From a beta proteobacterium KB13 (GTDB taxonomy: Bacteria; Pseudomonadota; Gammaproteobacteria; Burkholderiales; Methylophilaceae): a DNA stretch of 64,000 bases. Shown here one piece after another: positions 56,164 to 59,003 of this stretch. The position numbers were made by a program, and so were the translations under genes. The notes under the pieces are model-generated. The model was not told the DNA's origin. It saw only the letters and a list, made by a program, of their open reading frames with translations, and did not search any database. How positions within the stretch are numbered: position 1 is the first letter of the stretch; the number at the start of each line of letters is the position of its first letter. The stretch spans positions 707,827 through 771,826 of the forward strand of contig DS995299.1 of NCBI GenBank assembly GCA_000156155.1, given 5' to 3'.

Positions 56164-57078
56164 TTAAACTTTCCCAATAAGAAGATATTCTAGTAAAGCT
56201 TTTTGAACATGCAAACGATTTTCTGCCTCATCCCAAACCACAGACTTAGGTCCATCAATAACATCAGATGTAACCTCCTCTCCTCTATGCGCCGGCAAAC
56301 AATGCATGAATAAGGAATCTTTTGCTGAGGCATCCATCATTTCTTGATCAACTTGCCAATCTGCAAAAACTGATTTTCTTTCTGACTGCTCTGACTCGTA
56401 CCCCATACTTGTCCATACATCTGTAGTCACAAGATGAGCATCTTTAGCTGCATCCATAGGATTTTCAAATTGTTCAAAATGAGAATCATCGTATAAGCCT
56501 GCTCTCTCAACCTCAACCTCATATCCTTTTGGAGTTGAAACATGCATATTAAAATCTAATAACTCTGCAGCTTGTAACCAAGTATTGCAAACATTATTAG
56601 AATCCCCAATCCAGGCGACTGTTTTTCCCTCAACTGAGCCTCTATGCTCGATAAAAGTAAATATATCCGCCAAAATTTGACAAGGATGGTACTCGTTCGT
56701 CAGACCATTGATCACAGGAACCCTAGAGTTCTGAGCAAACCTTTCAATAATTTCCTGCTCAAAAGTCCTAATCATGACGACATCACTCATTCTGGAAATA
56801 ACTTGAGCTGCATCCTCAACAGGCTCTCCCCTTCCTAGTTGAGAATCTTTTGTGTTTAAGTAAATAGCGGCACCGCCGAGTTGATGCATGCCTGACTCAA
56901 AAGATAACCTTGTTCTAGTGCTAGCTTTTTCAAAAATCATCACCAGAGTTCTATCTTCAAGCGGCCAGTGTTTTTGATACTCTTTAAATTGTTTTTTTAA
57001 CCATTTTGCTCGATCGAATAAGTAATATATTTCGTCTTTTGTAAGGTCATTAAATTGTAAAAAGTGTTTAATCGTCAT
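56164..57078 (-). CDS. argF: Ornithine carbamoyltransferase
   Basis: Makes citrulline from ornithine and carbamoyl phosphate. The 304 residues have the carbamoyl-phosphate loop STRTR (53-57), the HPCQ motif, DVWTSMGYE and the ornithine-binding [10 protein letters not shown]. It overlaps the argD stop by ATGA, giving argD-argF-argG in one transcription unit. Confidence 0.98.
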
Positions 57079-58271
57079 GCTTTATTTTCTTTCAAATAAT
57101 CCTTTAGCATCAATGTTAAATTTGATACTAAAAATTCTGACTCATCATCATTGATAACTAAAGGAGGAACAATTCTTATAACATTTCCAGATGTCACGCT
57201 GATCAGTAAATTATATTTTAAAGCAAGCGTCATCAGTTCTAGGCAATCATAACCAAGCTCAATGCCAATCATTAAGCCCTGGTGCCTGACGTCAATTACA
57301 AAATCTAAAGATTTTGTTTGCTCTCTTACAGCATGAGCAATTTTTGAGCCTTGGATTGTTGCATTTAAATAAAGATTTTCTTGCTCTAAAACATCGAGAG
57401 TTAAATTCCCTGCACGACATGCTAAGGGATTTCCACCAAATGTTGAGCCATGCTGTCCTGGTTTAATGATGCTTTCTATTTTTTCATTCACTAAAGTGGC
57501 GCCAATTGGAACCCCTGAACCAAGGCCTTTTGCACTAGTTAGAACATCAGGCTTAATATCTGAATACTGAAAAGCATACAAACGTCCAGTTCGACCCACG
57601 CCGGTCTGAACTTCATCCAACATAAGAAGCCATTCATTTTGATCGCATATTTTTCTCAAATCGTTCAGATAAGATGAAAGATTTTTTGGGAGCCTTATCC
57701 CTCCCTCGCCCTGAATAGGCTCAACTAAGATAGCAACAACATTTTTATTTTGATCTGCAATTTTTTTTATAGAATCTAAATCATCAAAAGGGACTCGGAT
57801 AAACCCTTTTAAAAGTGGCTCAAAGCCAGCTTGAACTTTTCTGCTTCCAGTGGCGGATAAGGTTGCCATGGTTCTGCCATGGAAAGAATTCTCCATCACA
57901 ATAATTTGTGGATCTGAAACCTTTTTTGAATTGGCAAATAGTCTTGCAAACTTGATAGCAGCTTCATTCGCCTCACAACCAGAATTGGAGAAAAATACTG
58001 CGCTCATACCAGTCATGGAGGCCAGTCTTTGCGCTAGTTTTTCTTGTTCACCTATATTGACATAATTAGATAAGTGAATGAATTGATCGAGTTGGTCTTT
58101 TAGTCCTGATGTGAAATGCGGATGAGCATGACCTAGCGTATTAACAGCAACGCCTGCTAAGGCATCAAGGTATTTATTTCCTTCTTTATCAAACAGCCAG
58201 ACACCCTCACCTTTTTCAAAAGAAATAGGAAGTCTTCCGTAAGTTTTTAAAATTGAATATTTTGATTCCAT
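57075..58271 (-). CDS. argD: Acetylornithine aminotransferase
   Basis: PLP aminotransferase of arginine synthesis; relatives also act in lysine synthesis. The 398 residues include FFSNSGCEANEAAIKFAR, FHGRTMATLSATG, DEVQTGVGRTGRLYAFQ and the PLP lysine in LTSAKGLGSGVPIGA. The ATG lies only 7 bases after the T run of a strong terminator and has no clear ribosome-binding site. Homology supports this start. It heads the long minus-strand gene run that reaches purF. Confidence 0.96.
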   Translation of the reverse strand: MESKYSILKTYGRLPISFEKGEGVWLFDKEGNKYLDALAGVAVNTLGHAHPHFTSGLKDQLDQFIHLSNYVNIGEQEKLAQRLASMTGMSAVFFSNSGCEANEAAIKFARLFANSKKVSDPQIIVMENSFHGRTMATLSATGSRKVQAGFEPLLKGFIRVPFDDLDSIKKIADQNKNVVAILVEPIQGEGGIRLPKNLSSYLNDLRKICDQNEWLLMLDEVQTGVGRTGRLYAFQYSDIKPDVLTSAKGLGSGVPIGATLVNEKIESIIKPGQHGSTFGGNPLACRAGNLTLDVLEQENLYLNATIQGSKIAHAVREQTKSLDFVIDVRHQGLMIGIELGYDCLELMTLALKYNLLISVTSGNVIRIVPPLVINDDESEFLVSNLTLMLKDYLKENKA

Positions 58272-58278
58272 CTAGAAT

Positions 58279-58302
58279 AAAAAACGGCGGCTAACGCCGC
58301 CG
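58279..58302 (-). terminator. GC-rich terminator between the PuuD-like gene and argD
   Basis: CGGCGGC pairs with GCCGCCG around TAAC (58285-58302), followed on the minus strand by six T (58279-58284). A shorter T run on the other side makes it partly bidirectional. It should stop transcripts of the PuuD-like gene just before the argD start codon. Confidence 0.9.
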
Positions 58303-58328: not shown

Positions 58329-58826
58329 TTATAAACCAATTAAGCCTTTGTGTGATAGTCCGTTTGTCATTAAGAATAACATCGGAATAGATAACATAGT
58401 GTTAGTTCGAGATGCTAAAAAAGCAATTCTTCTGGCAGCAGTTTTTTCCGCATCACTCGCTGGTTTTAAACCAAGAATTTTTTGTTGATTTGGCCAGATA
58501 AGAACCCAAACATTGAATAACATAATAGTACCCAACCATGATCCTAATCCAATAGCCTCATAACCTCCACTCAATGTGAAAGCAGGAACAAAGTTACCGC
58601 CTAAGAGTGCGGCACCTGCAATCCACGTGGCTAATGCAGCCCAACGAAACCAAAGAAGCGCTAAAGGGGCAACATGTTTAGTAATACCAGCCGCCGTTCC
58701 ATCAGCATTAGCATTTTTCAAAGCTGGGACTTGAACAAAGTTGAAATAATAAAGTAGGCCTATCCAGGCAACCCCCACAATAACATGCAGAAATCTTACA
58801 ATCGCGGTGAAATAATCATACTCCAT
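58329..58826 (-). CDS. PuuD-like four-helix membrane protein (urate-oxidase N-terminal domain family)
   Basis: A 165-residue inner-membrane protein with about four helices (roughly 8-30, 53-77, 90-112, 135-157). It matches the membrane domain found in bacterial urate hydroxylase PuuD, starting with FLHVIVGVAWIGLLYYFNFVQVP-type residues; H14, H51 and H159 are possible heme ligands. The C-terminal cytochrome c domain of true PuuD is absent and no purine-degradation genes are nearby, so urate oxidation is doubtful. It follows a 30-residue membrane peptide by 29 bases and shares its promoter. A short quinol- or heme-linked redox role is possible. Confidence 0.75.
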   Translation of the reverse strand: MEYDYFTAIVRFLHVIVGVAWIGLLYYFNFVQVPALKNANADGTAAGITKHVAPLALLWFRWAALATWIAGAALLGGNFVPAFTLSGGYEAIGLGSWLGTIMLFNVWVLIWPNQQKILGLKPASDAEKTAARRIAFLASRTNTMLSIPMLFLMTNGLSHKGLIGL

Positions 58827-58855
58827 AATAATCTCCTAATATTTAGTAATGTAAA

Positions 58856-58948
58856 TTAAAAAAAGTTTTTCAAGAGATATACAAATACAAAAGTAAGTAT
58901 AACGCCTGCGACAATGGTTCCGAGAATTGAATCTAATGGATTTTTCAT
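58856..58948 (-). CDS. Small single-helix membrane peptide (30 residues), previously uncalled
   Basis: An open frame of 30 codons plus stop with a textbook ribosome-binding site (GGAGG, 9 bases before the ATG) and a strong upstream -35 box. The peptide begins MKNPLDSILGTIVAG, continues as one hydrophobic helix (about residues 8-26) and ends KNFF, so the positive end would face the cytoplasm or the end of the helix. It lies 29 bases ahead of the PuuD-like membrane protein on the same strand. Its size and setting resemble small helper subunits of membrane oxidases (CydX-like) by analogy only. I do not recognise the family. Confidence 0.7.
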   Translation of the reverse strand: MKNPLDSILGTIVAGVILTFVFVYLLKNFF

Positions 58949-58975
58949 AAAAATTTTCCTCCAAATTTTAAGAAT

Positions 58976-59003
58976 AGACTATATTATTTACCAACATTGT
59001 CAA
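58976..59003 (-). promoter_or_regulatory. Promoter of the small peptide / PuuD-like unit
   Basis: A perfect -35 box TTGACA (58998-59003, minus strand) is followed by two possible -10 boxes: TAGTCT at 16 bases (58976-58981) or TATAGT at 14 bases (58978-58983). With the GGAGG site just downstream this suggests strong expression. Confidence 0.5.

Follow-up and report, generated by a model that had tools for sequence, protein, structure and literature searches.

The closest described relatives of the locus analysed here are members of the DUF989 family. In the accessible text of Doniselli et al. (2015; PMC4562309) PuuD, a membrane cytochrome c urate oxidase, is described with eight helices and a CXXCH domain, and the short DUF989 proteins are described with equivalents of the PuuD helices I, II, V, and VI, without cytochrome c and in genomic contexts unlike that of puuD. 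The accessible portions of PMC4325964 and PMC6134056 describe small helper proteins, namely CydX with 37 amino acids and proteins of the TorE/NapE type. In addition, a pqqAED-puuD-serC-pyrD cluster of denitrifiers has been proposed to serve oxygen-free PQQ synthesis (PMC12423496, as far as its text was available).

The window, that is the whole stretch of 64,000 nucleotides that was analysed, stems from the beta proteobacterium KB13, whose genome is a single contig of 1.33 Mb. Close relatives of the source are the Methylophilaceae LSUCC0717 (99%) and LSUCC0401 (96%), which we take to be OM43-clade methylotrophs. The window carries a gene of 30 codons followed after 29 nt by a gene for a PuuD-like protein (Table 1). 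We suggest, with a probability of roughly 0.78, that the encoded peptide of 30 amino acids, MKNPLDSILGTIVAGVILTFVFVYLLKNFF, is a translated small membrane subunit and represents the detached first helix ("helix 0") of a short DUF989 protein.

Table 1. Features of the peptide/PuuD-like locus, in positions of the window
Feature	Position	Strand	Remarks
TTGACA, -35-like box	58998..59003	-	no consensus -10 at 16–18 nt
GGAGG ribosome-binding site of the peptide gene	58958..58962	-	9 nt before ATG
30-codon gene, single-helix peptide (helix 0)	58856..58948	-	ATG at 58948, stop at 58856
AGGAG ribosome-binding site of the PuuD-like gene	58833..58837	-	kept in L001–L007
PuuD-like gene, 165 aa, short DUF989 / Urate_ox_N, four-helix membrane protein	58329..58826	-	PF06181
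Terminator-like hairpin 3′ of the PuuD-like gene	58285..58302	-	7 G-C pairs, then TTTTTT
argD, frequent downstream neighbour	57075..58271	-	TIGR00707, 443 bits, cut-off 410

A sequence-only reading of this DNA had pointed out the intact 30-codon frame, the GGAGG, the TTGACA box, and the spacing to the PuuD-like gene, and all of these are present as claimed. The GGAGG is kept in the genus alignment (L001–L007), and a block TTGACAATGTT...AGTCTA is conserved in seven of nine aligned genus sequences. The proposed promoter stands only in part: the -35 box is there, but the nearest -10-like word, TATAGT, lies at a spacing of 14 nt, and a promoter scan yielded no sigma-70-type site using this TTGACA. 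The prediction that the peptide is well expressed therefore exceeds the promoter evidence. Downstream of the hairpin follow argD, argF, and argG, named by profile match, and argD is the downstream neighbour in 131 of 197 distinct core sequences (counting cores with 1000 nt or more available downstream). We do not claim argD as part of the complex, and this widely shared argD-argF arrangement may only be inherited order. The hairpin with its T-tract stops 13 nt before the argD ATG (58271–58302), and argD has no visible Shine-Dalgarno sequence; thus, the start or the control of argD may be unusual.

Judged by its substitution pattern, the 30-codon frame is a real small gene under purifying selection. 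Compared with the relatives L005, L006, and L007 the frame shows 10, 12, and 14 base changes, of which 8, 9, and 10 fall on third positions, and only 1, 2, and 2 amino acids are changed. Across 123 distinct sequences of 28 codons, the 2548 pairs (of 7503) whose pS lies between 0.1 and 0.7 have a median pN/pS of 0.34; among the same sequences the +1 frame is interrupted by stops in all 123 and the +2 frame in 55. The consensus reads MKNPL[DE]S(I/V)xGT(I/V)xxG(L/V)xLT, and the peptide occurs in Methylophilaceae, Thiobacillus, Gallionella, and several other beta and gamma lineages. The sequence-only reading had left open whether the peptide is conserved 5′ of the PuuD-like gene and what the synonymous rates would show; this conservation was found widely. 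No Pfam or NCBIfam family matches the peptide above its cut-off. DUF2970 (PF11174) was rejected as its family, with 15.2 bits compared to a cut-off of 27 and weak matches in 3 of 24 relatives, and the other Pfam names considered are weak helix-type matches below cut-off. By name we recognised no paper on the peptide in the literature searched, outside which lie most subscription papers and all supplements, and MKNPLDS or MKNPLES as text gave no literature match.

The presence of the peptide follows that of the PuuD-like gene closely. When 150 genomes of the family were drawn, 103 proved to have the PuuD-like gene and 102 the peptide (E ≤ 1), with 16 of 24 genera represented in each case. The only genome with the PuuD-like gene and without the peptide is G149, in which the PuuD-like gene is cut by the contig end. 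In four of the 102 the peptide scores weakly (E 0.037–0.36), though at the right position. A few extra weak matches (E 0.056 or more) elsewhere in family genomes look like chance. Of 250 genomes drawn from the order, 60 are matched by the PuuD-like profile at E ≤ 1e-15 and 37 by the peptide profile at E ≤ 0.01; the 29 genomes whose peptide match reaches E ≤ 1e-9 all belong to the 60. Five order genomes (G568, G586, G654, G689, and G699) give a weak peptide match (E 8e-5 to 7e-3) although the PuuD-like profile does not match them; all five matches lie in frames at least 299 residues long and look like chance. In about half of the 60 genomes the PuuD-like frames have at least 195 residues and weaker scores; presumably they carry helices of the fused type that are beyond the reach of the peptide profile.

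At the level of loci, our script classified 223 of 277 as split, that is with the peptide as a separate gene, 48 as fused, and left 6 unclassified. By eye three of these six are split (L116, L183, and L229) and L231 is fused when read from a GTG; in L059 the peptide precedes a masked stretch, and a contig end truncates L119. As 49 of the 277 loci were found via the peptide search, they are not independent evidence of pairing. Restricting the count to the 168 loci from the PuuD-like query alone, the helix is found in all 168, in 121 as a separate upstream gene and in 47 as the N-terminal part of the PuuD-like protein itself (119 and 46 by script, and by eye L183 and L229 split and L231 fused), bearing in mind that several loci can share one genome and that many are related, so that the counts are not independent. 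A non-redundant set of 137 proteins, which is weighted towards relatives of the window, comprises 103 split and 34 fused members with the calls by eye included. One small-ORF detector reports a motif-bearing ORF upstream of 100 of these 137 PuuD-like loci, compared with 9 of 685 random windows and none of 34 HemJ loci; the other 37 are 33 loci fused by script and, by eye, three split and one fused. If the motif is not required, small hydrophobic ORFs turn up in 61 of the 685 random windows and 4 of the 34 HemJ loci. Under the same rule full-length PuuD genes with CXXCH have no such helix, neither separate nor fused, in any of 12 sampled.

Two plasmid copies were found later with the PuuD-like query. 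The Acidibrevibacterium copy (L326) has the peptide, which is missing from the PLSDB gene table of this plasmid, a table that is itself incomplete. In the pqq cluster of Methylovirgula pHY1 (L325) the PuuD-like gene is present and no helix peptide occurs in the 8.2 kb read; at least one member can thus do without the helix.

In several lineages the two genes are one. In HTCC2181 (L134) and in L129–L132 the peptide continues in frame into the PuuD-like protein, and this one-protein form suggests that peptide and PuuD-like protein work as one unit. In most loci that the phylum search found in other classes, presumably alphaproteobacteria, the PuuD-like frame opens with a hydrophobic helix that is comparable but differs in sequence, and in L229, a locus from another class, the peptide is encoded separately in a form of 48 codons. 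On the core tree of 137 rows, whose root was not inferred and whose bootstrap had not settled, the label split or fused changes 4 times, compared with a mean of 30.7 after shuffling, and the starred branches force 3 of the changes. The fused clade of the HTCC2181 type (98/81) is nested inside split Methylophilaceae genes, which is simply read as a fusion of recent date in this clade. The most distant branch of the tree, that of the pqq-linked paralogue, is split as well. Alignment A4 without the peptide rows was used, as A3 had placed the peptides on the first helix of the core and was dropped; the gene-order clustering took in 61 of 80 loci, the remaining 19 being lost to ORF selection. The copies in two records titled Nitrospira and Rhizobium (L187 and L166) resemble those of gamma lineages and Thiobacillus; these records are perhaps misbinned or misnamed metagenome assemblies.

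The idea that the tiny helix belongs with the PuuD-like protein is thus strongly supported by pairing and natural fusions, and helix 0 is, as far as sequences can tell, a well supported partner of the short DUF989 protein. The partnership is read from conservation, pairing, natural fusion, and the absence from the sampled full-length PuuD genes; from these we infer translation, assembly, topology, and a stabilising role.

The PuuD-like protein itself is by its profile match a short DUF989 protein. Its score with PF06181 (Urate_ox_N, DUF989) is 70.2 bits at a cut-off of 26.9; the match falls into two stretches, of which the better one covers profile positions 174–236 of 295. The profile is also matched by all 28 relatives. 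Its 165 amino acids include neither a CXXCH motif nor any cysteine. The earlier description as the membrane half of PuuD, without cytochrome c and away from purine genes, holds as far as tested, the purine genes being covered by a search for HIU hydrolase (PF00576), for which 4 of the 150 family genomes gave a match and the own genome none; the description also agrees with the short DUF989 proteins in the accessible text of PMC4562309. H14 is the only histidine that is invariant in all 137 sequences, together with W21, G23, Y27, R61, G71, G95, M102, N105, W111, P112, Q114, S139, R140, N142, and M153. With only one invariant histidine a bis-His heme is unsupported, and the invariant residues neither prove nor exclude a His-Met or other site. 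Among solved structures neither the peptide nor the PuuD-like profile has a relative by sequence, and Foldseek gave no match at E ≤ 0.001. The VIA-align rows are generic helical bundles that mostly cover residues 34–193 and barely the helix 0 part. A model of a natural fusion (pLDDT 88.3, pTM 0.80) shows five long helices, four of them forming the core; the helix 0 residues score 75, 81, and 77 in blocks of 10 residues, below most of the core. With one invariant histidine and matches to generic four-helix bundles, the former label of a heme-type protein and the redox complex proposed with it are both putative only.

Compared with the short DUF989 proteins in the accessible text of PMC4562309, the proteins studied here agree in the four core helices, the missing cytochrome c, and the non-puuD context. 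They differ in that these proteins were described with four helices, whereas here nearly every sampled member has an extra N-terminal helix, in many cases encoded by a gene of its own. With PuuD the window protein has the homologous PF06181 core in common, in contrast to the eight helices, the CXXCH domain, and the missing helix 0 of PuuD. As with CydX and TorE/NapE, in the part of their description available, a small protein is tied to a membrane redox partner, and the peptide is likewise hydrophobic, shorter than 50 amino acids, and conserved beside its partner. On the contrary, our peptide is also found fused to its partner and the cofactor of the partner is only putative; the likeness is functional and no sequence relation is claimed.

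We suggest that the two chains would assemble in the inner membrane to one five-helix unit, in which helix 0 would run from N-in to C-out, pack against the four-helix core, and substitute for some of the extra helices of full-length PuuD that are absent from the short form. Other readings of the short frame appear unlikely. It might be a regulatory leader peptide, that is an upstream ORF that controls the PuuD-like gene or argD and whose sequence has no protein function, and its place directly upstream, its own strong ribosome-binding site, and the hairpin before argD would fit; on the contrary, the amino acid sequence is conserved and not the frame alone, and several lineages have the same sequence as the N-terminal part of the encoded protein. 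There is as little to be said for the peptide being only an aid for targeting or insertion, a signal anchor that does not last as a subunit. Being the first helix of the fused form and having the conserved polar N-terminus MKNPL[DE]S speaks for this, but in the split form a separate chain would not target in cis, and the core begins with a long helix of its own in the fusion model. A membrane-active type I toxin of the Fst type that sits here by chance is a very improbable reading of the peptide: NCBIfam NF033608 gives weak matches in 14 of 24 relatives (best E 0.0028), but the best of five proteins scanned singly reaches 16.7 bits compared to a cut-off of 26, the window peptide has no NCBIfam match up to E 1, and both the pairing with the PuuD-like gene and the natural fusions to it speak against this reading.

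Concerning the unit as a whole, we consider a HemJ-related porphyrin or heme enzyme quite improbable. Both proteins start with an H-x6-W...G stretch, and UPF0093 (PF03653) matches weakly in 5 of 28 members (best E 0.017; the window protein has no match). The profile–profile comparison (hhalign), however, gives a probability of 13.6%, and a separate HemJ is found in the own genome and in all 108 good family genomes, so that a replacement of HemJ by the window pair is rejected as well. In the genus f39/g120 none of the eight drawn genomes (G158, G166, G170, G174, G178, G189, G193, and G197) has a HemJ match, and the PuuD-like profile matches five of these (G174, G178, G189, G193, and G197). That the unit is a urate oxidase of the PuuD kind has hardly any chance of being right: the Pfam match is above cut-off, but the profile is matched only in part, and with no cytochrome c domain, no CXXCH, no cysteine, and, by the search given above, an HIU hydrolase gene in few family genomes and not in that of the window, urate oxidation is unlikely.

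For the five-helix unit a membrane redox role is plausible given the homology to PuuD, the pqqE/serC/pyrD-like context of a paralogue, and a nearby sodB. The paralogous pair lies between pqqE and serC in L113, L114, L115, L117, L118, L210, L281, and L326, and a pyrD-like gene follows serC in the first seven of these; in L326 pqqA, pqqD, pqqE, and serC are present and pyrD is not annotated. The order pqqE-[peptide]-PuuD-like-serC-pyrD-like is kept in seven of seven complete loci. The names in L118 pass the NCBIfam cut-offs for PqqE and SerC, and the PyrD-like protein passes Pfam DHO_dh and is below the NCBIfam cut-offs. Thus, a paralogue of the window pair sits in a cluster like that of the denitrifiers, for which section 2.9 of PMC12423496, within its accessible text, does not mention the extra peptide. 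Unlike in the pqq cluster, the window pair adjoins argD and its genome has PqqC; a replacement of PqqC by the window pair is rejected, as PqqC is found in 107 of the 108 good family genomes, the own included.

Of the 137 non-redundant loci, 15 have the start of a sodB-like gene within 1.2 kb; these span several classes and gene orientations (L146, L170, L179, L190, L191, L193, L211, L214, L216, L218, L223, L251, L267, L273, and L274), and the name SOD was confirmed by profile match on L193. Near the HemJ control loci sodB was found in 0 of 34; these loci are about 3.4 kb long and many of the test loci 8–10 kb, all 15 sodB starts lying within the 1.2 kb.

The unit would act as a small membrane oxidoreductase that takes its substrate from the cytosolic face and passes electrons to the membrane, and not as a urate oxidase. 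This oxidoreductase part is drawn more loosely than the partnership, and we regard its chances as about even. Going further is rather doubtful: the short DUF989 protein with helix 0 might form an undescribed minimal class of five-helix membrane oxidoreductases, widespread in Pseudomonadota, in which the invariant His together with Met, Trp, Asn, and Arg would bind a cofactor or substrate and electrons would flow to the quinone pool. One branch may then carry out the oxygen-independent final oxidation of PQQ and another may act on superoxide or on some reactive metabolite, and this would account for sodB being found nearby repeatedly.

The pair is kept in a genome of 1.33 Mb, suggesting that it is of real importance. 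If helix 0 is a subunit, natural fusions offer ready single-chain forms for structure and spectra, and work on the annotated short DUF989 gene alone, including the pqq-linked copy, would miss a subunit. A presumed four-helix family of unknown function would thus become a family of five-helix units, the first helix of which is encoded by a separate gene of about 30 codons in 103 of the 137 sampled non-redundant members.
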